The notes under the pieces are model-generated. The model was not told where the DNA came from. It made no database searches and saw only the letters and a program-made list of their open reading frames with translations. A DNA stretch of 46,879 nucleotides from a virus. Every line of letters begins with the position of its first letter. Within the stretch, counting starts at the first letter, position 1. Where the stretch lies: positions 1 through 46,879 of the IMG/VR virus record IMGVR_UViG_3300005253_000246; one strand, written 5' to 3'. Below, in pieces: positions 4,203-46,879 of the stretch. The position numbers and the translations under genes were made by a program.

Positions 4203-4727
4203 CTATGTTTCCGTTTCAGAGGATATGTCACCAAGAGCCATCCTCTTCCTAAGTTCTTGTCTCTCCTTGGCTACTGCTTCCTGTACGGATTTCTCTGTCC
4301 ATCCCAGTGAGGGACAATATGGTTCAAGAGGTGGCCACTCACCACTTACATACTTGCTGGATAGTTTCTTAAGGAACCAGGTTACCCTCTGGGATTCATC
4401 GGAGTCATGTTCACAGGTGGAGACAAGAAACCTCCTAACGGCATGGAAGAAGTGCGGCTTTACGGTATTATACCCCTCGAACTCCTCAAAGGTATCCAGT
4501 AGGACATGGCTCATATGCTTCTTAACATTATCCTTGGTTGGTTCCGGATACCTCAACACACTCGTAACTATACACCAGACATCCCATAAGAGGAGTATCC
4601 TGGACAGTAGGCCATTGCCTCTACCAAGACACCCAACAAATCCCTTCACCAGTGGGGCCTTAACCTTGTGGATGAAATATTGCTTCCTCTCAATTAGCAT
4701 GTCTAGGGTTATTTTCGATATTGTCAT
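4203..4727 (-). CDS. Helical protein of the late operon (174 aa)
   Basis: ATG start with an AAGGGG site. Predominantly helical, with the sequences LVKGFVGCLGRGNGLLSRIL and ILLLWDVWCIVTSVLRYPEP forming hydrophobic stretches, then a charged C-terminal coiled region (SVQEAVAKERQELRKRMALG). No domain recognised. Being helical and charged in an otherwise beta-rich structural cluster, it could be a chaperone or connector component; unproven. Confidence 0.55.
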   Translation of the reverse strand: MTISKITLDMLIERKQYFIHKVKAPLVKGFVGCLGRGNGLLSRILLLWDVWCIVTSVLRYPEPTKDNVKKHMSHVLLDTFEEFEGYNTVKPHFFHAVRRFLVSTCEHDSDESQRVTWFLKKLSSKYVSGEWPPLEPYCPSLGWTEKSVQEAVAKERQELRKRMALGDISSETET

Positions 4728-9700: not shown

Positions 9701-12700
9701 TTATATTTTCCTACCTGTCTCCCTTGCAATCTGTTTGTATACTTCCTCAGCACCAGGAGCGGTGAAGGCTGAGGTCCTACCCCAATAGAATAGCCAGGCA
9801 TCTAGGTGGGGATTGGCAAACCTGAGAGCTTTCTTGGCACCTGATACTTCGGTTCGGAAACTGGAGATGAGGAGATTACCAGTTTTCTCACTTGTGGTGG
9901 CCTTAATCCCAGCCTGTCTATCCAGCTTTTGTCCAGTACGTTCAAGGAATAGATACTCCTCAATTAACCCCTGTTCCTCATCATTGTAGGTGGAAAGTAT
10001 CGTCTCCCATACTTTGTTGTAGGTTCGGAAATATGTTCTACCTACATCTCTGCGGACTTGCTCCATCCTTGTGGAGTTCTTGGAGAGGAAGTCATCCCAC
10101 TCCTGCTTAAAGTCGTCTGGTATAGCTTCCTCAATGGCCTGACGCTGGGCCCAGAAGTTATCCCAGTCTCGCCGTTTCTCACCTGTTTCTGGTTCAGTCA
10201 TTTCTAATAACTCAATGGAGAAATAGAGATTCATTAGTTCCCTCATTGGATGTAGAACTGGCTGTGGCTGATTAAACTCCCTATAATACTCAGCACGGTT
10301 ATCCAAATCCATGAGGGGAAATTCCTCTACCTTATTATCAATGAACTTCCTCTGGGCGTCATATATATCCAGTAATAAGGAGTTGTAGTCATCTGGCCCA
10401 CGCTGGGCAGAAAGGAACTCCCTCTGTAGTATGAGTTTGGAGTCCTGTAACTGCTCGGTGAATCTGTTTACAGAGTCCCAAGCCAATTCTATTTTGTTGA
10501 GTATCTCCTGCTGCCTACCTGGAAGTAGGGGTCGGATATTACCCACCCATCTATAGTAGTCCATCTCTTTTAATATAGCCTGCTCAGAGGGAGACATACC
10601 ACCTACCATATCCCAGATTCGGTAACCGTGCTGTCTTAACCAATCCTGTTGGTCTATAGTAAAGCCAGTCATTTCCTCTATGACTTTGGAGGCTTCCTCA
10701 TACATCTTATGCTGTTCACCAGTACGCATACGGAATACACCAAACTGTTCAAACCCAGCAGAGTACCAGCCTACCTCTCTCCTAGCATCGGTAAGTAACT
10801 GTTCCTCTTCCTCGGTAAGGTCTACTCCCTCCTGTTGTTTGGAGAATATGAGGGTGCCATCTCCACCACGTCTATTTATCTGGAGTATCTCCATGTACTT
10901 TCTAAATCTATCACCAAACAGGCGGTCTGAAATCCACCTTACTGATTCATTGTCAGGGAATAGGGCTATGAGAATATCCAGTGGTGTCTTGACTAGGGAT
11001 GGTACAGCCTCACCAAATTGCATTTCTACACCACCAAATAAGGCTAGAGGTACTCCTATATGGGCTCCTGGATAGAAACCATAGCGGGAGAGAAAGTCGG
11101 AGAACTCTATTACATCACCTGCTGCCCCTAAGGAATCATAATACTCAGGGTAGTCCCTACGGGCTAATCGGGTTTGGAGTGTACCATATACTGTACCTCT
11201 ACCAAACCCTACATCTACTGAGGTTCCTGGGATGTGAATGTAGCCATAGTCGGTGTTATCTTGCCATCGCTCAAAGGAGGTGAAGGTTCCTGGATGGCGG
11301 ATGAAGGAGCGGGGAAGCCAGAACCAACGCTGGGATTCATATGTATTTCCTGTTGGTAATATAGACCCATTACAATTTACAAACCACGTACCAGACTTAG
11401 TAACAGGACACCATACCTTGCCTTTGTAATGCTCCTTATACATCCTTCTAGTTTCCTTACCAAGGTATGGTTTATGATTAGCCAACAGATTTACCCTATT
11501 ACCATTGACGGTTATAGCCTTACCGAGTAACACAGAAAGTATTTGGAAAGCCTCCATTACGGGACCAGGAGTTTGTTTCCAACAAGAGTTCTCCATATCT
11601 GTATATTCTATATGGGTACTACCCTCAGCCTTAAACATAGCATCCCACATAGCCTCAGCAGATGGTCTATCCAGCCTAGTAACTAGGTTTGGCAGATAAG
11701 TCTTATCGGGACAAATCTCCAATATCCTGTCATTGTCATCATTCTGTACCCTAATAGAATAATCATAACTATTCTCGGTACTGTATCCAGTCCTCTCCCT
11801 CAATATGCCACTAATACCAACCAGCTTCTCAATCTCCAACAGATGTTTGTGGAGAGACTGGTAAATTATCATATGAGGTTTCCTACCATTACCCCTATTT
11901 ATATAACCATCAGTATAAGCCCAACCCAGTATAGCAGCATCCCTAACAGACAAGACACTCTCCTTAGGAAACTCATGTGGCAAGGACCTAGGTATCACAT
12001 CATAACCATCCGTTAGCTGATAACCCCTCTTGATGTGGCTATGCTCACCAGTAAGTTTATCCACAACTAGCCATCTATGGTTAGGAGTAAACTTAATATC
12101 CTTACCTTTAGCTGGTATCACCATCAAGTCATCATCATAGTCAAATACGGCTATGTCCTGAACAGGTTCCCAGTTAGTCACCATAGTATCAGGATTAACC
12201 GTCAGTACATCCTCACCAATAACTAAGTCTGAGTGGTGCTTCCAACCAGTCCTAGTTAATATGGTAGCATACTCAGGCACACACCAGAAAGGGTAGATGG
12301 CTTTCATAATAGAGTCGAAGGCATTGGCGCTGGAGTAATCGGTGAATTCCTTACTATACCAAACAGTGGCTTCATCCATAGCCTGCTGGCGAAGGTCGTT
12401 GTAGTTGGTGAACTCAGGTTTAATCTTCTGAGGTATTGTCTTGATGGGAGGCTTTATTGGATTTTCTATTCTATTCCTTAATACTCCAGCACGGATGATA
12501 AGTTCGGATTCATCAACGGAACCTATGGCCACAACATCAGTAATACGTACTAGGATATTATCTATATCAGGACCAATCCTCTCACGTATTGTTTCAGTCA
12601 GTTGGCTTATCTCATTACTGAGCCTACGTATCTCATCATCCAACTCAGCCTGTCTAGGTACTTTGACATTAGGTTGGGACAGCTCTCCTTGCAGCGTTTT

Positions 12701-15700
12701 AAGTTTGGACCTCAAGTCTTGGAGACGTGGGTCATCAAGTGGTACCTTCCAAGTATCCTGGAAATCAACCGCCGCCTTTCTGCTGCTAGTTATATTAGTA
12801 AATTCCCTCTCAAGAACTTGGGGCCCAGCCTTACCACTACCACGATAAATTCTCATAATACCAGTAGGGTACTTCTCCCTTAGTATCCTCTGGATACCTG
12901 CCAGGTACTCCTTGTTAGTGGTGGCAGTTCTGCCTATTCCCTGTAAAACATCATTGTCAGATGCTTCGAACCATGCTTCGATTAGGTCTCCCATACTCAT
13001 ACGTTTCTCTCCAGGAGCGCCAAACCTCATCTCAACAGGCAAGTCCTCAGGGACAGATGTTTCCTTAGCCAGCTTGGTAACTCTCTTCCTTGTGGCTTCT
13101 AGTAGGGTTGGGTCAAGAACTATTATATCCTTCCCAACATCAGTCCCAAGAACCCTCGCCACAGCCTGCTCCTCAGATACACCACCCCTGATGAGGTCAT
13201 CTACAGCATCCCTAAACGATGCGGTTTCCTTAGCACTAGCAAGTCTTTCACCCAATCCAATATCAGTTTCAGAAAGTAACTCCCTCACCTCCCTGGGAGT
13301 AAACATTACACCCTCTACTGCACTAGCCGTATCATCAAAATACTTACCAATAGCAGCTATCTCCTCATCAGGTAACATCTTACTATTGTGGAGGGAGTGT
13401 AAATCCCTTCTCACAGCCTCTAGTTCCATCTGCTTACCAGTTACCCAACTCATATTCTTTGGGTCAACCTGTAAACTCAAAGCTATTTGGTCATATACCC
13501 TACCAACAGATTCTTTGGTAAAGCCAACATCACCTTGCTTGATGTGAGCCATGATGTAGGAGGTAAACATATCCTTATCATTTTGGGAGGTAAGAACATC
13601 CATCATAGACCTGGATATATCATCTCCTCTGGCTCCAATCAGCTGGGCTACATCTTGGGGAGCTAGGTCTCGGTCTATTACCTTGATGTCTGGTCGTTGT
13701 CTGGGTCTGAGGCCACCTGCTATGTCCAGGTCGTCTATGGCGTTTTTAATCATACCATCAAAGTCAGCCATCTCCACATTGGCAGCATGTTCTCTACCAC
13801 CAACATCACGGAAGAAATCATCCCAAAAATCGTTGGTCTTTAGGTCTGCTGGAGCTACCTCCGCAAAGAAGTCATGGCGCCAGGAGTTTATCTGTTCACC
13901 TAGCTCAGAGGCTCGGAGTCTCTTGGCTGTCTGGAGGTTAAATAGTTGTTCAGCTTTGGATATATAGGCTGGGTTATCCTTATATATAGAAAAACCTCTA
14001 TTAGCCCAGCCCTTTGAAATTATTAAATCTACCATTTCATCCACAACTACAGGGTCTATATCCCGTGAAGTTTGTGCTCCTATATGAACCCCAGGCAACT
14101 CCATTGGTTTACCAGTTACCACCTCCTCAAATGCCTCAGCAAATAACTCATCAAGGTCCATCGAACCTATAGGAGTCTTTAATGAGACTTCTGCCCTTAC
14201 CTCAGGAAATACAGTATGTGCTATCTCATGTGCTATCTCACTATCAAATCTGGTAGGTGATGTTAGCCATAAACTACCTTCACTAATATTAATACTAGCA
14301 CCTTGAGCCTCAGATGCCAACTTTACAGACTTGATTTTGTCACTAAGACGCTTTGGATATGTACTTAGAATATCAGCTACAGCATCTATAGACGGCTGTG
14401 GTATATCACCTTCCCAACTAATCCTACTGGTAATTGTGGCAACATCTACCTCACGTATAGGAGGTTTCATACTTACCCTTATCTTTTCTACCACCCTATC
14501 TATACTAGCCCCAGCCCTTTCAGTAAATAGGGTGATAGAGTCCAGAGTCTTATCTATACTGGCTCTCCTATCGGCAAAGGGTAGTCCCCTAGTTCTTTCT
14601 ACAGCCCTACCTAGTATCTGTTTGGGAGTAGAACCATATATAGACGACATAAAGTTTAGACCATAGATGAGTTGTGCCATCTCCTGTGGGTTTCTTACCT
14701 CAAAGTCTACCAGCAGATTGGCTAGTTGGTCATATTGAACTGAGGCACGTTCGGGTGAGGCTATGAAATCATTCAGTAGAATATCATTGGCTTGTCTGGT
14801 TATATCATCTACGCTGTTTACACCATCCCTAAACAGTACACCATCATCCTGCTGCCTTATAATAAAGTCCCTAACTGGCCTAGGTAAGTCAGGATGCTCC
14901 TTTAATATGTCATTCACCTCACGCCTGATAATCTTGGTTCTGGTAAAGTCACCCTTAGTAGCACGGAGAGCCTCTGGTAGACCATTCATCTTTAGCTCCA
15001 TAGCTGCCTGTTGGACCTCCCTTACCACCCGCTTGTTGGTTACTCCCATTAGTTTATCTGGCCCAGCATGGGTTAATGTATCTAGAGCTTCACCACCAAT
15101 CTCCTTCAATATCCGTGTTGCCTTAGCATCTAGAAAATTACGCCTCATAGCCATATTGATTTGTCCGGGTACACCGACAGCATATTTGAATGCAGTTCTG
15201 CCAAATCCATTAGCCAGACCACCAAGTTGGAGAATCCAATTATTCCAATTAGGGTCGTCAGCACTACGGAGAAAGCCCATAGTCTCTGATATAGACCTCT
15301 CTGATACTATTGATGGCTCATAGCTTACCCCAACCCATTTCCTGGCAAATGATTGGCTACTTCTCAGACCAGGTACTTCTCCACCTAGTAGAGTACGAAT
15401 TATATCCTCAATTACATTCATGGGTCCATACATGGCAAAGGTAAGGTAGGATTCAGCAAAGGTTCTGATTACTACCCGGTCTATACCATTCACCCATGCT
15501 TTCTGAATCCTAAGAGGAACAGTGGTGAGAAGGGTAGAAACCCTGCCCATCTCTTTAAGGGCTAAGGCCACACTACTACTTTCAGCCTTGAGGAAAAGTC
15601 TCCTATTCCTAACCATCAATCCACTACCAGCCTTAGCTACAGTTTTGGATTGGCCAAAAGACCTAGCTCCATTGATAATACCTTGGCTCCTCTCCAATAA

Positions 15701-17422
15701 TATCTTACCAGCAACCACAGAGGTTTTGTTATCAAGATTACCTACCATTATTCTAACCAACTCATCTGCTGCTTCCCTATTGGTCATCAGCTTCTTATTA
15801 CCACCAATCTTAGAGAAGAAGTCCTCAAAGACCCTATCTACATCCGCTATGGTTTGTTTGGTTATCTGTTCAGGAGTGAGGGTAGTACCAAGCCTATCAG
15901 CCCAGACTAGAACTTCCTTCTCAGTTACGGGTACATGTTTGAGGAACTCACGGCCAGCCCTGGTAGTTACATTATCTATTTGTGGATTCTTTAGGGTATA
16001 TTTCACAGCAGCATCAACACCCTCTTGCCACTCCTTCATAGTCATTTGGTAATAGGCCCTACCATAGCGTTGGGTTAGATACTTCTTTACATATTGCCCA
16101 GCCTTTGAGGATGCTATGTTGGCTTGTTGACTTATAGTTTTGGGGAGCCTCCTTACCCCAGCTTTGATTAGGTCGAATGGTAATTCTAGTACATCAGATA
16201 CGCCACGTTCAATAAAGCCTACCCATCTACCTACAGCACCTAGAGGTTTGGCTATCCTGGTAGCTATCCCCCAACCAACATAAGTCAATGGGTCAGTTAA
16301 ACCCTCCATAAGCATATACTTTAATATCCAACTGGCGGCACCTTCACCTGGTGCATCCCATTCTTCCCAAGCATGACCTAGGGCTTGCCAGGTTCCTTCA
16401 TTCCTTTTATATCTCCAGAAGGCAGCCTCTATATCATGTATGCCAAATCCTGCACCCCAAACAAGACCAGCTAATGGGGCAGAAACATGCTCAAAGTATT
16501 TACCTGCAACCTCCAATAGAGCTGTACCTGGTTGTACCACCATCTCTTTCAGCAAATCCACCAGTTGGTAATCAGGCATTTCGGCTATACCAGACTTATA
16601 GGCAGCCAACATATTGTTCCGTTCCTCCCATTCATCTATCAAAGCCTCTGCCTGCTCCCTCAGAAACTCTACAGTTTCCAAATCAGCCTTATCACTTATC
16701 TCCCTACTTTCTATTAAATGGTTTATCCACTCCTCCTCAGACATGACAGATGGTGGAGCTACAGGAGCGGTAATGGAACGAATTATGGCAGACACAGTTA
16801 GGGAGTGTATGGTTTCTGGTGGAACTGTTATCAATGTGGGTGGAGGAACCAGCTCAGGTAACTCTACAGGTTCAGCCTCACTGGCAAGTTCAGGTAATTG
16901 TGGTATATCAGTCAGGGTTTCCACCATGCCGATGATAATATTATCAATTTCATCCAACTCCTCAGATGTAATATTGTCTGGAGGTCTCAACACAGACAGT
17001 AATTCCTCCACTGTGGTAAACTTTCCACCAGATATTACTATAGGAACCTGACTGAACAACCTTGCATAGAAGTCATCACGCTCTATCCCAATGATAACTG
17101 TATCCATCTCCCGCTTCATCTCACCACGGGTTTGTTCTGGGAGGATAAAACCAATACCAGCAATATTGCGGACTACTTTCGGTAATATCTGTAATAGGAG
17201 AGGTACTTCAAACACTCCAGGCACCCCAGGTATACGAGCCGTAAACCTCTCAATGTTAGTACCTAGTTGTTGGAGTCTCTCCTCACCCCTCTGGGCGGAG
17301 AGCATATGTTCCCTGGACCTCTTCTCCCAGCCTTCAATGGTATCCTCAAATCCTGGTGGTTGAGGTGGAGGAGGCCCAAGCTGCTTAGGTGGTTTTGGTC
17401 CTATAGGTAGTAGTTTAGGCAT
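9701..17422 (-). CDS. Giant polyvalent virion protein with zincin-like and ADP-ribosyltransferase domains, split by an intein
   Basis: 2573 residues from the ATG at 17422, which overlaps the portal stop; an upstream in-frame start would lie inside the portal gene. After intein removal the product is 2260 residues. Visible parts: Pro-rich and coiled-coil N-terminus (residues 1-60); a Trp-rich amphipathic region (~340-430); a zincin-like HEIAH motif (1065-1069) with a downstream acidic helix DELFAEAFEE (1091-1100); and an R-S-E ADP-ribosyltransferase signature with YRG Arg1527, TSS 1545-1547 and the E-S-E pair at 1638/1640. The intein is at 1714-2026, and the C-extein (2027-2573) begins with TYESQRWFWLPRSFIRHPG. 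It follows the portal, where MuF-like or internal ejection proteins are encoded. I infer a capsid-internal protein delivered into the host, with the ART domain modifying host targets. Confidence 0.8.
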   Translation of the reverse strand: MPKLLPIGPKPPKQLGPPPPQPPGFEDTIEGWEKRSREHMLSAQRGEERLQQLGTNIERFTARIPGVPGVFEVPLLLQILPKVVRNIAGIGFILPEQTRGEMKREMDTVIIGIERDDFYARLFSQVPIVISGGKFTTVEELLSVLRPPDNITSEELDEIDNIIIGMVETLTDIPQLPELASEAEPVELPELVPPPTLITVPPETIHSLTVSAIIRSITAPVAPPSVMSEEEWINHLIESREISDKADLETVEFLREQAEALIDEWEERNNMLAAYKSGIAEMPDYQLVDLLKEMVVQPGTALLEVAGKYFEHVSAPLAGLVWGAGFGIHDIEAAFWRYKRNEGTWQALGHAWEEWDAPGEGAASWILKYMLMEGLTDPLTYVGWGIATRIAKPLGAVGRWVGFIERGVSDVLELPFDLIKAGVRRLPKTISQQANIASSKAGQYVKKYLTQRYGRAYYQMTMKEWQEGVDAAVKYTLKNPQIDNVTTRAGREFLKHVPVTEKEVLVWADRLGTTLTPEQITKQTIADVDRVFEDFFSKIGGNKKLMTNREAADELVRIMVGNLDNKTSVVAGKILLERSQGIINGARSFGQSKTVAKAGSGLMVRNRRLFLKAESSSVALALKEMGRVSTLLTTVPLRIQKAWVNGIDRVVIRTFAESYLTFAMYGPMNVIEDIIRTLLGGEVPGLRSSQSFARKWVGVSYEPSIVSERSISETMGFLRSADDPNWNNWILQLGGLANGFGRTAFKYAVGVPGQINMAMRRNFLDAKATRILKEIGGEALDTLTHAGPDKLMGVTNKRVVREVQQAAMELKMNGLPEALRATKGDFTRTKIIRREVNDILKEHPDLPRPVRDFIIRQQDDGVLFRDGVNSVDDITRQANDILLNDFIASPERASVQYDQLANLLVDFEVRNPQEMAQLIYGLNFMSSIYGSTPKQILGRAVERTRGLPFADRRASIDKTLDSITLFTERAGASIDRVVEKIRVSMKPPIREVDVATITSRISWEGDIPQPSIDAVADILSTYPKRLSDKIKSVKLASEAQGASINISEGSLWLTSPTRFDSEIAHEIAHTVFPEVRAEVSLKTPIGSMDLDELFAEAFEEVVTGKPMELPGVHIGAQTSRDIDPVVVDEMVDLIISKGWANRGFSIYKDNPAYISKAEQLFNLQTAKRLRASELGEQINSWRHDFFAEVAPADLKTNDFWDDFFRDVGGREHAANVEMADFDGMIKNAIDDLDIAGGLRPRQRPDIKVIDRDLAPQDVAQLIGARGDDISRSMMDVLTSQNDKDMFTSYIMAHIKQGDVGFTKESVGRVYDQIALSLQVDPKNMSWVTGKQMELEAVRRDLHSLHNSKMLPDEEIAAIGKYFDDTASAVEGVMFTPREVRELLSETDIGLGERLASAKETASFRDAVDDLIRGGVSEEQAVARVLGTDVGKDIIVLDPTLLEATRKRVTKLAKETSVPEDLPVEMRFGAPGEKRMSMGDLIEAWFEASDNDVLQGIGRTATTNKEYLAGIQRILREKYPTGIMRIYRGSGKAGPQVLEREFTNITSSRKAAVDFQDTWKVPLDDPRLQDLRSKLKTLQGELSQPNVKVPRQAELDDEIRRLSNEISQLTETIRERIGPDIDNILVRITDVVAIGSVDESELIIRAGVLRNRIENPIKPPIKTIPQKIKPEFTNYNDLRQQAMDEATVWYSKEFTDYSSANAFDSIMKAIYPFWCVPEYATILTRTGWKHHSDLVIGEDVLTVNPDTMVTNWEPVQDIAVFDYDDDLMVIPAKGKDIKFTPNHRWLVVDKLTGEHSHIKRGYQLTDGYDVIPRSLPHEFPKESVLSVRDAAILGWAYTDGYINRGNGRKPHMIIYQSLHKHLLEIEKLVGISGILRERTGYSTENSYDYSIRVQNDDNDRILEICPDKTYLPNLVTRLDRPSAEAMWDAMFKAEGSTHIEYTDMENSCWKQTPGPVMEAFQILSVLLGKAITVNGNRVNLLANHKPYLGKETRRMYKEHYKGKVWCPVTKSGTWFVNCNGSILPTGNTYESQRWFWLPRSFIRHPGTFTSFERWQDNTDYGYIHIPGTSVDVGFGRGTVYGTLQTRLARRDYPEYYDSLGAAGDVIEFSDFLSRYGFYPGAHIGVPLALFGGVEMQFGEAVPSLVKTPLDILIALFPDNESVRWISDRLFGDRFRKYMEILQINRRGGDGTLIFSKQQEGVDLTEEEEQLLTDARREVGWYSAGFEQFGVFRMRTGEQHKMYEEASKVIEEMTGFTIDQQDWLRQHGYRIWDMVGGMSPSEQAILKEMDYYRWVGNIRPLLPGRQQEILNKIELAWDSVNRFTEQLQDSKLILQREFLSAQRGPDDYNSLLLDIYDAQRKFIDNKVEEFPLMDLDNRAEYYREFNQPQPVLHPMRELMNLYFSIELLEMTEPETGEKRRDWDNFWAQRQAIEEAIPDDFKQEWDDFLSKNSTRMEQVRRDVGRTYFRTYNKVWETILSTYNDEEQGLIEEYLFLERTGQKLDRQAGIKATTSEKTGNLLISSFRTEVSGAKKALRFANPHLDAWLFYWGRTSAFTAPGAEEVYKQIARETGRKI
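11345..12283 (-). other. Intein with LAGLIDADG endonuclease (313 aa)
   Basis: In-frame insertion in the giant virion protein. It begins with Cys (CVPEYATILTRTGWKHHSDL, splicing block A); block B is IKFTPNHRWLVV with the TPxHxW histidine. The endonuclease motifs are LGWAYTDGYI and a second AMFKAEGSTH. The C-terminal blocks are VWCPVTKSGTWFVNCNG and the terminal Gly-Asn, followed by Thr as the +1 extein nucleophile. The penultimate residue is Gly rather than the classical His, as in many phage inteins with a TGN end. The insertion point is the YPFW/TYES junction, a conserved-looking extein site. Both catalytic acidic positions (D in TDG, E in AEG) of the endonuclease remain, so homing may be active. 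Confidence 0.93.
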
Positions 17423-19115
17423 TTGTGGCACCCCCTGGAGGTGTAACAGCAGCACCTAGTTCTCTGGATAACTCCTGCTCTATTGGACTGGCACCATTAC
17501 CTCCAGGTGGCTGTACCTGTGGTTGTTGTGCTAATTCCAACTCCGCCTCCTTCTTCTTAGCCAGCTTCTCATACAGTTCTGCGGTAGGGATATCATTAGC
17601 CTCACGGAATAACCTGGCTTGTTCTCTATAACCTATGATAGCACTTACCTTAATAGCATCCGGGTCCATCATAGCATCCTCAGCACGGGTATCGGCTATG
17701 GATTTTAAGGCATTTTTAATCTCAGGGAACATACGGTCAGTTATCCAGGTTACAGGAAGTCTGAACTTAGGGTTCATTATCCTGGCGATGTTGGCTTTTT
17801 GTACCAGTAGGCCGGGAATTTCTACATCCGCATCCACCTCAAATCTCCTATCAAGACGTTCAGGCATATTCTCTGGGAGTTTGAATCCATGCGGCCTAAA
17901 CCTATTCATAAGTATCATATCTATCCAGTAATTGTTCAGGTCAGTTCTCATACCTGCGGTGGAATCTCGATATGGAGTTAGTGTCTGCATGGAGGCTGTT
18001 GCTATGTTGGCTAGGGCTAAGTAGGATATCTGCTGCTGGACATTACCAAATACTGCTGCAGGGAACATACCACGCTGTAGTTCGTTTTGATAGTGGAATA
18101 GAATATTGGTAAGCTCTACAGGAATGGGATTAGATTGTAATGGAGTAACAGAATCACCCTGCCCACCATGTAGGATGGAGCCCCATCTGTCCATCAATTC
18201 CTCAGTAGCTATAGGTGTGTCACCACTAGACAACTCCAACCAATGGGGCTGTGCTGCTGTCCTTGCAGCCTGTTGCATGAATGACCTCATCTTATTGTAG
18301 TTGAGGAGAAGGTCCTCGTCAGTCCCTACAAAGGCTTCACCATAATGTTCCTGCCAAACTTTACCGGTTTTGATGGAACCCATGTCTGGGAGTCCACCAG
18401 CTGGGGAGGTAAAGATGGGTAGAGTACCCAGTTTGGTTAATGCCTTGTCAACTACCGGCTCCTTGACGAATAGACTCTCCATTACCACAGAATTGGTTAC
18501 ATTAGCATCGGCATCAAAGGCCCAGTAGTCATACATGGTAATATCGCCAGTAATTGGCCGTGGATATGTCCAGCCCATAACCTTCAATTTCTTGGCTGAG
18601 GCTACAGGAGATAGTGTATATATATGGGCGTGTTCTACCAAACCATCTGGGCCAAATCCAGGAAAGGAATTGGCTGGGGACCACACCTCAGACCAAATTT
18701 CCTTATCGGTTACCATGGAGAATATTGAATACCAGCCGGTAGCTAGGAGCCAGGAGACAAAATCAAATAGCCAGGACTGTCTACCTATCATACGGTAGCG
18801 TTTCTCCTGGTCTTTCCATCTCCTGGATACATAATCCTCTAGGTAACTGGTGGCAGGAACAAACTCTGGAGGTAGGGTATCAATAGGAATCCTATCAGAT
18901 ATAACCATAGTAGTGAGTAGGTGGCGTGCAAGGTTAAATCCAGTCCTTGGGTCATTGGTAACAACGGACTCCATACCCTCCTGCTCCAATTCATTGTTAA
19001 GCAATAGGATGTTATACCAGTCCTTAAATTTTTTGGTTCTAGTAGACCAGTTACTTTTGAGGGTAACACACCTATCTATTATAAACTGGGGTCTTATAGT
19101 ATGCTTATCAGCCAT
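17415..19115 (-). CDS. Portal protein
   Basis: 566 residues, ATG start behind GGGAGGT, between the large terminase and the giant MuF-position gene. The N-terminal helix-rich part contains SVVTNDPRTGFNLARHLLTT, a portal-type DP.T.F..AR segment. The middle has the clip and wing regions (WYSIFSMVTDKEIWSEVWSP), and the C-terminus ends in a helix-rich crown and a Gln/Pro tail (ELAQQPQVQPPGGNG). It forms the dodecameric DNA entry vertex and docks the terminase. Length and position match portal families; I did not identify a subfamily. Confidence 0.85.
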   Translation of the reverse strand: MADKHTIRPQFIIDRCVTLKSNWSTRTKKFKDWYNILLLNNELEQEGMESVVTNDPRTGFNLARHLLTTMVISDRIPIDTLPPEFVPATSYLEDYVSRRWKDQEKRYRMIGRQSWLFDFVSWLLATGWYSIFSMVTDKEIWSEVWSPANSFPGFGPDGLVEHAHIYTLSPVASAKKLKVMGWTYPRPITGDITMYDYWAFDADANVTNSVVMESLFVKEPVVDKALTKLGTLPIFTSPAGGLPDMGSIKTGKVWQEHYGEAFVGTDEDLLLNYNKMRSFMQQAARTAAQPHWLELSSGDTPIATEELMDRWGSILHGGQGDSVTPLQSNPIPVELTNILFHYQNELQRGMFPAAVFGNVQQQISYLALANIATASMQTLTPYRDSTAGMRTDLNNYWIDMILMNRFRPHGFKLPENMPERLDRRFEVDADVEIPGLLVQKANIARIMNPKFRLPVTWITDRMFPEIKNALKSIADTRAEDAMMDPDAIKVSAIIGYREQARLFREANDIPTAELYEKLAKKKEAELELAQQPQVQPPGGNGASPIEQELSRELGAAVTPPGGATNA

Positions 19116-26034: not shown

Positions 26035-26112
26035 GTGTTTGGAAGTAGGGAAGTTATAGAATGGAGGTAGGGACAGGACGTGGACATTGGAGGACATTCA
26101 GGGACAGGATAC

Positions 26113-26176
26113 ATTATGTAAAGCTGGATTGGAGACTAGAGGAGACTACATTATGTAAAGTCAACATTATGTAAAG
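26113..26176 (+). repeat. Three ATTATGTAAAG motifs upstream of a promoter
   Basis: Identical copies at 26113-26123, 26150-26160 and 26166-26176, the last ending 10 bp before the -35 at 26187. Same motif as at 24776-24948 and 32311-32332. The placement suits an activator or repressor of this promoter. Confidence 0.7.
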
Positions 26177-26186
26177 CTATCAGCTA

Positions 26187-26215: not shown

Positions 26216-26249
26216 ATAGGTAGACTAAGAATAGAGAGGAGTTAGAAGG

Positions 26250-26327
26250 ATGACTAAATTGTGTGATATGTTCCAGGAGGACAACCCACGCTTTGACAAG
26301 GACCGATTTATTACAGCTTGCCAGTAA
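26250..26327 (+). CDS. Microprotein with a phage-typical FDKDRF motif (25 aa)
   Basis: ATG behind AGAGGAG/AGAAGG. Sequence MTKLCDMFQEDNPRFDKDRF then ITACQ matches short phage proteins that end in NPRFDxDRFxxAC, known mainly as small ORFs of unknown role. Its TAA stop is the first three bases of the hammerhead, so translation reaching the stop would disturb ribozyme folding. Confidence 0.6.
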   Translation: MTKLCDMFQEDNPRFDKDRFITACQ

Positions 26328-26382
26328 CTCGAAACCAGGTGAAAGCCTGGTCGCTAGATAAAGTCTAGCCTGATGAGAGTTA
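26325..26382 (+). ncRNA. Type II hammerhead ribozyme
   Basis: All core elements are present in type II order. Stem II 3' strand TAACTC (26325-26330) is followed by GAAA (26331-26334). Stem III is CCAGG/CCTGG (26335-26339/26346-26350) with a TGAAAG loop. The cleavage triplet GTC ends at 26352, and stem I is GCTAGA/TCTAGC (26353-26358/26364-26369) with loop TAAAG. CTGATGA (26370-26376) and the stem II 5' strand GAGTTA (26377-26382) close the fold. Every stem pairs perfectly and every conserved core base matches. Predicted self-cleavage after 26352 separates the 25-aa cistron from the DUF7007 gene and leaves a new 5' end 47 nt before its start codon. Confidence 0.94.
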
Positions 26383-26399
26383 AGGAGGGTTAAAAGGAA

Positions 26400-26708
26400 A
26401 TGAAGACACCTTGGGGAGAATCAGACAGTCAGGATACACTAGCGCCGGGCATCATAAGCTATGGCACGGCCAGCCACGGGGGCATATGGTTAAGCTCAGA
26501 GAGACAGGACCAGCTACCCGAAGGGATTGACAACTTCTTACACGACCTTCGCTGGTGGGAGGAGGACTGCGACTGGGTTGTACCTTATATCCTATTCAAG
26601 GATGATATTGAGAAGTACGGCCAAGCATATCACTTCACTGAGCATCTAAACGCTGCCTATATCACAGCACGGGACCATCACCCGGAGATTATCGGAGTAA
26701 CGGCCTAG
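26400..26708 (+). CDS. DUF7007-like protein
   Basis: 102 residues, ATG with AAGGAGG 11 nt upstream. It starts KTPWGESDSQDTLAPGIISY, then GTASHGGIWLSSERQDQLPE and WWEEDCDWVVPYILF, the TPWG / ASHGG..LS.ER / EEDCDW pattern of DUF7007 proteins from phages and plasmids. The biochemical role is unknown. It is translated from the 3' product of the hammerhead, which is unusual for a conserved early gene. Confidence 0.75.
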   Translation: MKTPWGESDSQDTLAPGIISYGTASHGGIWLSSERQDQLPEGIDNFLHDLRWWEEDCDWVVPYILFKDDIEKYGQAYHFTEHLNAAYITARDHHPEIIGVTA

Positions 26709-26800
26709 TTAATACCCGGACACGGAGCCGGTCAAGTTGGAGGGCTTACCGGTTCAAGTCCTGGCATTAGCCAGAGAATAATATAATGGAGGGTATGAAG

Positions 26801-44774: not shown

Positions 44775-46222
44775 CTGTTCCCACCATCTAACCTTCTACG
44801 CCACCATGCTGCTACCCATCTAGCATAGCCACTACCAGGACTACCAGCATTTTGCCACTCCCTAAAAGTCGGTTGTCTGTTGGTAGGTAGCGGAGTAGGT
44901 GTCCTTGGCGGGACAAATGTTGGAGTAGGCGGTTGTGGTGCAGTCACTCTGGCTGTGGCTCCTGATATAGGTTCAAGTCCAGGCAACTCTATTGGACTGA
45001 TACCGCCTAAATCTGTCTCCCTAAACTTAGCCGTTACAGCCTCGTCTACGGTACTAAATATTTTCTTGGTTATCTCGGGACTATCGGCTGCTTCCTTTAC
45101 ATCCCTCTGTTTATCCGTATCTGGTATAGAAGCCCTAGGTCTGGACAACCATTCAGGAAGCCCAAAGTCTGAGGTCACCTCACCTAAAGCTAGCTCAAGA
45201 GTGTAGACTCCTTCCTTCCTATTATAACGGTGTATCAAATTAGTAACCCTGGTAATAGCTTGTGATGGATACACTCTGCCACCACCACTCTCCTTTGTTA
45301 CAATCTCTACCTTGCCACCATACACAGCTCCTTGGCTATTGATTGCATAGGCTCTCATGTAATAGTGCTTCCCTGCAGTCAGTCCAGTGAAGAGGGAGTC
45401 AAACGAACCAAGTACAGAGATTGCTCCATTATCTACCTGTTGCCACTCACCACTACCACTATCTGTAGTAGTCGGGTCATCTCCTTGCTCTACCTCATCC
45501 AGAACATGACCATGAGCAGTTACATCCGATGAGCCCAAGCTGGTCATTACTCCTTTACCTGTGGCTGTAGTTATCTCAACATCTGTAGCTGCCTGGGTAG
45601 TCACTGTAAGGTCTGCTGTGGAAACAAAAAGCTCATAATCCTCAGTATAGCCAGTTACTGTACCAGCAATACCACTGTTCCAAGCATTTACAACATAGAT
45701 GTATCTAAAGTCCCTCTTTTCAGTATGGAGATTAAATGCCGCCGTGCCCACTGAAACTGTTCTGGCTGCATCAGAAAAGATGGCACAACTAATCCTACCA
45801 AAACTACCAGTAGACTCATCTCTGAAAATTCTAAGGTAATAAGTTGTATCAAGTGATACATCCACACTGCTGGAATACTTGAAGGAGCCATCTACCTCAA
45901 GTACTTCGATTCTGGGCTGACCTGTAACATCCCTAATCCGCACAAATATAAAGAAGAAGATGTCGGCTTCATAGAGGGTTTTTATAAACCCTATATTATT
46001 TGCTAACATCCAAACAGGAACCTGTGTATTTGTATCCATAGCAGTAACATGAATGGTAAGGTCATGAGTAAAGTCACCATTGAAAAAGTTCACACCCTTA
46101 TCAAAAATAACGTAAGCATCCTCGTTTGTAGATAAGGCAGAGAACACAGACCTACTTGACGATTGTGCAAGCCTACCATTAGGGTCCACCTCAGTATAAG
46201 TTAGAAGGTTCTCTTTAGCCAT
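44771..46222 (-). CDS. Adhesin-like virion protein A2 (483 aa)
   Basis: ATG behind AGGAGAA, overlapping the B2 stop (TAATG). The N-terminal ~200 residues form a concanavalin-like beta sandwich (YVIFDKGVNFFNGDFTHDLT, DTTYYLRIFRDESTGSFGRI). Next is a fibronectin III-like repeat (TTATGKGVMTSLGSSDVTAH GHVLDE, GKHYYMRAYAINSQGAVYGG). The conserved ~150-residue tail begins ITRVTNLIHRYNRKEGVYTL and ends Pro/Thr-rich with a Trp/Arg C-terminus (ARWVAAWWRRRLDGG). The tail matches A1 almost exactly, whereas the head domain is unrelated to the DNRLRE-like head of A1. It is therefore a swapped-head paralogue, probably for a different receptor or surface. Confidence 0.8.
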   Translation of the reverse strand: MAKENLLTYTEVDPNGRLAQSSSRSVFSALSTNEDAYVIFDKGVNFFNGDFTHDLTIHVTAMDTNTQVPVWMLANNIGFIKTLYEADIFFFIFVRIRDVTGQPRIEVLEVDGSFKYSSSVDVSLDTTYYLRIFRDESTGSFGRISCAIFSDAARTVSVGTAAFNLHTEKRDFRYIYVVNAWNSGIAGTVTGYTEDYELFVSTADLTVTTQAATDVEITTATGKGVMTSLGSSDVTAHGHVLDEVEQGDDPTTTDSGSGEWQQVDNGAISVLGSFDSLFTGLTAGKHYYMRAYAINSQGAVYGGKVEIVTKESGGGRVYPSQAITRVTNLIHRYNRKEGVYTLELALGEVTSDFGLPEWLSRPRASIPDTDKQRDVKEAADSPEITKKIFSTVDEAVTAKFRETDLGGISPIELPGLEPISGATARVTAPQPPTPTFVPPRTPTPLPTNRQPTFREWQNAGSPGSGYARWVAAWWRRRLDGGNR

Positions 46223-46879
46223 TAGGTTCTCCTATCCTCAACTGCTACTCTATCATATAGTTCTACCCTAGCATCATGAGGAATAACCAACCTAGCACCC
46301 AGTATCTCAGATTTTAGTTTTGTCATAATGGCTGCTGCCCTATTATCAGCATCAACTTGTTTGGTAATACTACCTGCAAGAAACACCTCTACAATCTCAG
46401 CATATCTATCTATCTGACCCTGGTCTTTAGTTGGAGTACTTACTATCAATGGAAAGCTTGGTGTATTCCAATCACCAGTAACAGGGTCCTGGTTACACAA
46501 TACTACTACATTGTTGGGGATAAGGAGAATAGACTTCTCGGTATGCTCTGTGAACCAATGGGCCTTGTAGGAATAATAAGTCTCATCAATAGAATTATCA
46601 ACCTCAGGAAATATACACTGGAAAGTCTTACCAGTCTTGGGCCTTAGATATTCTTTGGTCATCCATATTAGCCTATACAACAAAGCAGCAGCATTTTCAA
46701 AGGGTAGTTTGTTGACGGTAAATACAGGCTTAAATTTATCTACGATGCCATCGTCTGGAGGAGAATCCTCTAATATCCAGCCCAATGCTCCCTCGATAAT
46801 GAGTTCAATTAGCCCATATACGGTTTTGGTTTTATTAAAAATATTACCATAAGGCTGACCCTCCAAATCCGAGCCATCC
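46222..46879 (-). CDS. Hub-like virion protein B2, N-terminus cut by the right edge
   Basis: Open to the window edge; 218 codons are present. Clearly homologous to residues ~150-396 of B1 (shared PVF.VNKLPFENAA, LYRLIWMTKEYLR, KTFQCI(Y/F)P, SILLIPN..VVLCNQDP, RLVIPHD(S/A)RVELYD). It carries one copy of the 37-residue unit that is duplicated in B1. About 150 N-terminal residues lie outside the window. Confidence 0.75.
   Translation of the reverse strand, partial: DGSDLEGQPYGNIFNKTKTVYGLIELIIEGALGWILEDSPPDDGIVDKFKPVFTVNKLPFENAAALLYRLIWMTKEYLRPKTGKTFQCIFPEVDNSIDETYYSYKAHWFTEHTEKSILLIPNNVVVLCNQDPVTGDWNTPSFPLIVSTPTKDQGQIDRYAEIVEVFLAGSITKQVDADNRAAAIMTKLKSEILGARLVIPHDARVELYDRVAVEDRRT
46765..46879. 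repeat. Right-edge repeat, identical to 1924-2038
   Basis: The last 115 bases equal 1924-2038 exactly and most of 1829-1927. The contig stops inside the repeated unit of the B genes, the mirror of the situation at the left edge. Confidence 0.9.

Follow-up and report, generated by a model that had tools for sequence, protein, structure and literature searches.

The window, a linear IMG/VR-type virus record of 46,879 bp (46.9 kb), carries on its plus strand a promoter, a 25-codon open reading frame (ORF), a hammerhead ribozyme and a gene for a DUF7007 protein, with the following features.

26111..26178 (+): three direct repeats, ACATTATGTAAAG(CT/TC), operator-like, upstream of the promoter; similar repeats occur in the related contig L278
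26187..26215 (+): sigma-70-type promoter, TTGACA-17-TATACT with extended -10; 11/12 consensus matches; conserved in L278
26250..26327 (+): 25-codon ORF, MTKLCDMFQEDNPRFDKDRFITACQ; a C-terminal stub, belonging to the small-protein family DNPRFDxxRFxxAC
26325..26330 (+): 5' strand of stem II, UAACUC, in which the initial UAA is the stop codon of the 25-codon ORF
26331..26333 (+): catalytic core GAA (GAAA when A26334, paired in stem III, is included)
26334..26351 (+): stem III hairpin, ACCAGGU-GAAA-GCCUGGU, from fold and scanner
26352..26353 (+): predicted cleavage site C26352^G26353, from the core alignment, with its position given by hammerhead chemistry
26353..26369 (+): stem I, GCUAGA/UCUAGC, with pentaloop UAAAG; compact 17-nt class
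26370..26376 (+): catalytic core CUGAUGA, from sequence reading and covariance model
26377..26382 (+): 3' strand of stem II, GAGUUA, from fold and scanner
26382..26388 (+): Shine-Dalgarno sequence AAGGAGG for the DUF7007 gene, adjoining stem II, read directly
26400..26708 (+): DUF7007 protein, 102 aa (Pfam PF22653, E 2.9e-23)

Transcription is expected to start near 26222, and the ribozyme lies about 130 nt downstream of the promoter, within the first 131 nt of the transcript. An earlier note on this DNA had placed the ribozyme between two early cistrons, just 5' of the ribosome binding site of the DUF7007 gene. ORF calls, Pfam and reading of the sequence agree with this position, and the strong promoter and the gene strand suggest that the cistrons are early. 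Just 3' of the DUF7007 gene, GGTTCAAGTCCTGGCATTAGCCA at 26754-26776 resembles a tRNA T-arm with a CCA end; neither ARAGORN nor Rfam backed a tRNA there.

The upstream cistron, described in the note as a 25-residue gene, is present as an ORF, but it ends in the C-terminal motif DNPRFDxx[RK]FxxAC and is the C-terminal part of a recurrent phage family, not a unique leader peptide. Proteins with DNPRFDxxRFxxAC are small, mostly 55-150 residues, and common in environmental phages, including two relatives of the window phage (L271 and L284). The 25-codon ORF itself gave no convincing Pfam, NCBIfam or PHROGs match. Proteins ending in DNPRFDxxRFxxACG (loci L157-L276) are widespread, and the examples tried fell into no Pfam, NCBIfam or PHROGs family. 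When 115 DNPRFD ORFs were sampled irrespective of ribozymes, all 15 hammerheads in the 1.13 Mb covered, about 11 of them independent, were on the same strand as the ORF and within 1 kb of it.

Elsewhere in the record, a 2584-aa protein (9701-17455, minus strand) contains an in-frame insertion of 313 residues (residues 1725-2037; 11345-12283, minus strand). The insertion is absent from the relatives L277-L280, whose matches abut at the insertion point; it begins with Cys and ends with Asn-Thr, which is intein-like, and has no Pfam match. The last 115 bases (46765-46879) are identical to the internal segment 1924-2038, and positions 1-300 are 93% identical to 44887-45186. Paralogous modules lie at both ends of the record, and it is probably there that the assembly broke.

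Fold and detection of the ribozyme

Direct reading of the plus strand at 26325-26382 gives UAACUC-GAA-ACCAGGU-GAAA-GCCUGGU-C^GCUAGA-UAAAG-UCUAGC-CUGAUGA-GAGUUA, which is a complete type II hammerhead ribozyme with an intact core. Compared with the core pattern of CUGANGA, GAA, an A15.1-U16.1 pair and an NUH triplet, the site has CUGAUGA, GAAA and the cleavage triplet GUC at 26350-26352, and its stems I and III are closed by loops while stem II is open. Stems I, II and III comprise 7, 6 and 7 bp with G-U counted. The earlier note had all stems perfectly paired; the three stems are intact, but two of the counted pairs are G-U (U26340-G26345 and U26359-G26363) and may belong to the loops. On both strands of the 46,879 bp, a scanner covering the three hammerhead permutations returned the site as the sole strong match, with C26352 as H17, and it returned comparable matches in 0 of 40 Markov-simulated windows. 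The minimum free energy of the site is -22.1 kcal/mol (z = -5.0), and the corresponding structure is exactly the hammerhead fold. The predicted pairing of stem II is about 0.9 or more for transcripts with 3' ends from 26386 to 26420, and drops to 0.3-0.5 at equilibrium with 3' ends at 26440-26520. Between loop I (UAAAG) and the tail after stem II (AGGAGGGUUAAAAGG), where a pseudoknot of at least 4 bp was looked for, the best pairing was 3 bp (UAA/UUA), and the pseudoknot was dropped for that reason.

The Infernal scan with a type II model that the note had proposed gave a divided result. Rfam was silent: no hammerhead family matched 26325-26382 at the gathering threshold or at E<=10, and the site did not reach the gathering threshold of RF02276 Hammerhead_II (37 bits). 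In control scans, Rfam returned 3 matches in seven loci holding about 25 clean hammerheads and 3 matches in twenty loci with dozens of compact hammerheads. The RF02276 model describes a narrow, mainly pseudoknotted class and overlooks a large compact class. In contrast, a covariance model trained on 56 natural compact type II ribozymes, with the window sequence excluded, scored the site at 47.1 bits (E 1.9e-15), and the runner-up in the window reached 9.3 bits. The covariation within the training set is strong but partly circular, as the scanner had required helices when the 56 members were picked; the score of the left-out window sequence is free of this circularity. Taken together, scanner, fold and covariance-model score support the type and the cleavage site after 26352 that the note had assigned. 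A chance resemblance, or an ordinary pair of intercistronic hairpins, would fit with the silence of Rfam, but Rfam misses most clear members of the class, and with the class-specific E value and the absence of matches in simulated sequence, we regard this explanation as extremely improbable.

The compact class and its position at stop codons

Phage type II hammerheads were sampled from IMG/VR by their core pattern, which gave 207 distinct ribozymes, including those of other loci. Sorted by the length of the stem I hairpin, they form two groups. In the pseudoknotted one the hairpin measures about 22-24 nt and loop I can base-pair with a tail of the kind AGGC..; in the compact one it measures 17 nt, made up of six bp and a five-base, UNNNG-like loop. 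The first position of the compact pentaloop is U in 146/149 and the fifth is G in 109/149, proportions that are biased by a second search pattern, which demanded the 17 nt and that U; before this pattern was applied, the compact group already accounted for 31 of 82 ribozymes and nearly all of these had the loop-initial U. The hairpin GCUAGA-UAAAG-UCUAGC of the window belongs to this compact subclass, which is defined in the present analysis. Its loop agrees with the commonest base of the class at four of five positions, and its 6-bp stem II exceeds the 4 bp typical of the class. A start codon and a sequence resembling a ribosome binding site follow the compact ribozymes at a median of 25 nt, and the class is consistently intercistronic. 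In some loci (L301, L322, L327, L332 and L059), four to nine type II hammerheads are arrayed over a few kb, and they seem to occupy the gaps between successive small genes.

The earlier note had stem II starting at the TAA of the 25-codon ORF. This was borne out, and the adjacency is class-wide. With the window excluded, 137 compact ribozymes have an upstream gene, and in 108 of them (79%) its stop codon lies 2-12 nt before GAAA; of 3426 positions drawn at random from these loci, 119 (3.5%) lie 0-12 nt from an upstream stop. The most frequent distance from stop to GAAA is 3 nt (37/137), which is also the value in the window. At junctions flanked by two genes, the median gap is 1.5 nt between upstream gene and stem II and 24.5 nt on the downstream side, against 46 nt at ordinary same-strand junctions in the same loci; these medians are based on rough ORF calls, and some of the loci come from related phages. 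The overlap with the stop codon is a property of the class, not a local oddity. The term 'stop codon' is absent from the text of Perreault et al. (PMC3088659); most of the subscription literature is beyond the reach of text search.

That stem II and GAAA would lie under a ribosome halted at the TAA is geometrically reasonable, and given the class-wide adjacency, control of cleavage by translation is plausible. In such a switch, a ribosome finishing the 25-codon ORF would occupy stem II and GAAA, prevent folding and so preserve the uncut transcript, and poor translation would let the RNA cut. The stop codon inside stem II, the 3-nt spacing shared with the class and the tightness of the upstream gap relative to downstream and ordinary junctions all speak for it. 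However, compact gene packing, or a protective 3' hairpin near the stop codon, would yield the same adjacency, ribosomes dwell at stop codons for a short time, and no conserved regulatory partner was found. A possible competitor of stem II, GAGUUA in the leader (26239-26244), was rejected as a chance occurrence: about 10% of shuffled sequences contain it, and its equilibrium weight vanishes after the transcript passes 26386. We therefore consider the switch unlikely at this locus, and we hold slightly less to the broader proposal that phage type II hammerheads are built onto stop codons so that termination of upstream translation gates self-cleavage. If true, such gating would be a protein-free link from the translation of one early gene to the processing and expression of the next.

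The locus in related phages

No cultured relative of the window was found by blastn against INPHARED, and tblastn with the terminase against cultured phages gave only matches of 22-27% identity. Nine related contigs were found via the terminase. One of these, L278 (86% terminase identity), retains a 206-aa gene, the intergenic repeats and the promoter up to the first start codon; its genes beyond this codon differ from those of the window, and no hammerhead was found in the contig. Since the promoter is kept and the downstream genes differ, the mini-ORF, the ribozyme and the DUF7007 gene make up an exchangeable cassette downstream of a conserved promoter. None of the relatives found has the mini-ORF beside DUF7007. 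An ortholog of the ribozyme was not found at the same site, and because the closest relatives replace the whole cassette, selection on this copy is not measurable. In the four nearest DUF7007 relatives (52-73% identity), no hammerhead pattern was found anywhere in the contigs, so the ribozyme does not travel with DUF7007 and an association between the two was rejected.

The more distant relatives L284 and L286 (67%) contain another type II hammerhead, between genes of 248 aa and 295 aa, each with a homolog in the window. The first base of its stem II (UAAGCC/GGCUUA) immediately follows a TAA stop, and the ribosome binding site of the following gene, whose ATG is at 4323, shares bases with the ribozyme core. 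In L286, this hammerhead (4238-4320) has a long loop III of about 29 nt, and its core CUGAGGAGG also serves as the Shine-Dalgarno sequence of the next gene.

With the cassette missing from the nearest relatives, the upstream ORF being a shortened version of a longer protein family and no pseudoknot present, the ribozyme might be a degraded or slow hammerhead, carried as a functionless passenger in a moron-like cassette behind the conserved early promoter. Against this, the core is intact at every position, as are the three stems, and stem II is longer than is typical of the class. We judge the passenger explanation improbable, more so than either form of translational gating.

Proposed processing of the early transcript and known systems

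The reading we prefer, with a probability of roughly 0.78, is that the site is a functional compact type II hammerhead without the usual pseudoknot that acts as an intercistronic RNA-processing element. The ribozyme would fold as RNA polymerase leaves and cut after C26352. Because stem II is predicted to form once the polymerase has passed 26386, cutting could be co-transcriptional. The upstream product would be a leader of about 130 nt that contains the 25-codon ORF and has the stem III hairpin and a 2',3'-cyclic phosphate at its 3' end. The downstream product would be an early polycistronic mRNA whose 5' end carries a hydroxyl and the stem I hairpin and lies about 47 nt upstream of the DUF7007 start codon. 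Judging from topology, it is the type II permutation that would leave each new end immediately bounded by a hairpin. According to the earlier note, cleavage would split the two cistrons and leave the ribosome binding site on a 5'-hydroxyl RNA with DUF7007. Site and geometry support the split and the place just 5' of the ribosome binding site. Structure, core, class membership and position are established here, and the cutting, the chemistry of the ends and an altered stability or translation are inferred. Without a strong pseudoknot, fast cleavage at low Mg2+ would depend on a putative tertiary contact; this, the lack of an ortholog at the site and the drop in stem II pairing in longer transcripts speak against the preferred reading.

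The gain from such processing would likely be separate fates for the released leader and for an early mRNA lacking a 5'-triphosphate. Where decay begins at 5'-mono- or triphosphate ends, a 5'-hydroxyl with a hairpin should make the mRNA more stable; in a host that has RNase J, the 5'-hydroxyl can serve as an entry point for decay, as for glmS. Since decay routes differ in this way, the sign of the effect on stability would depend on the host. The idea that the DUF7007 ribosome binding site is masked until cleavage was not supported, as its predicted accessibility varied with the chosen 3' end and showed no consistent gain on cleavage.

The glmS ribozyme likewise self-cleaves upstream of a coding region and leaves a 5'-hydroxyl mRNA. 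Its fold is unrelated and it needs GlcN6P, whereas no ligand is implied for the window. Closer to the window are the bacterial and prophage type II hammerheads (Perreault et al. 2011, PMC3088659; RF02276), which have the same stem II-open permutation, CUGANGA/GAAA/GUC, three stems and intergenic sites in phages. In the known type II ribozymes loop I is longer and forms pairs with the 3' tail; in contrast, the window ribozyme has a 6-bp stem I with a pentaloop and falls below the Rfam threshold, and its 6-bp stem II contains the stop codon. The tandem hammerheads that flank ardA and other prophage genes are also intercistronic and would cut polycistronic phage RNA into gene-sized pieces (PMC3088659), whereas the window has a single copy, 130 nt from a promoter and ahead of DUF7007. 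Three tandem bacterial arrangements are reported to self-cleave in vitro, and the A. tumefaciens array to do so in E. coli (PMC3088659). The HHphage variant of haloviruses HF1 and HF2 is also located just 5' of the start codon of an early gene, and its cleavage site is no more than 3 nt from the mapped 5' end of an early transcript (PMC3088659); that variant has a non-canonical core in an archaeal virus, unlike the canonical core of the window.

The purpose of bacterial and phage hammerheads has been described as unknown or open (PMC6155905; PMC10085705). The finding that the stop codon most often precedes GAAA by 3 nt, and that a start codon and ribosome binding site come shortly after the ribozyme, turns a vague association into specific questions, namely whether upstream translation gates cleavage and whether hairpin-bounded ends alter the stability of early phage mRNA. 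The window ribozyme belongs to a known kind and not to a new one, and what it adds to the known type II hammerheads is a compact class overlooked by Rfam with a strict placement at stop codons.
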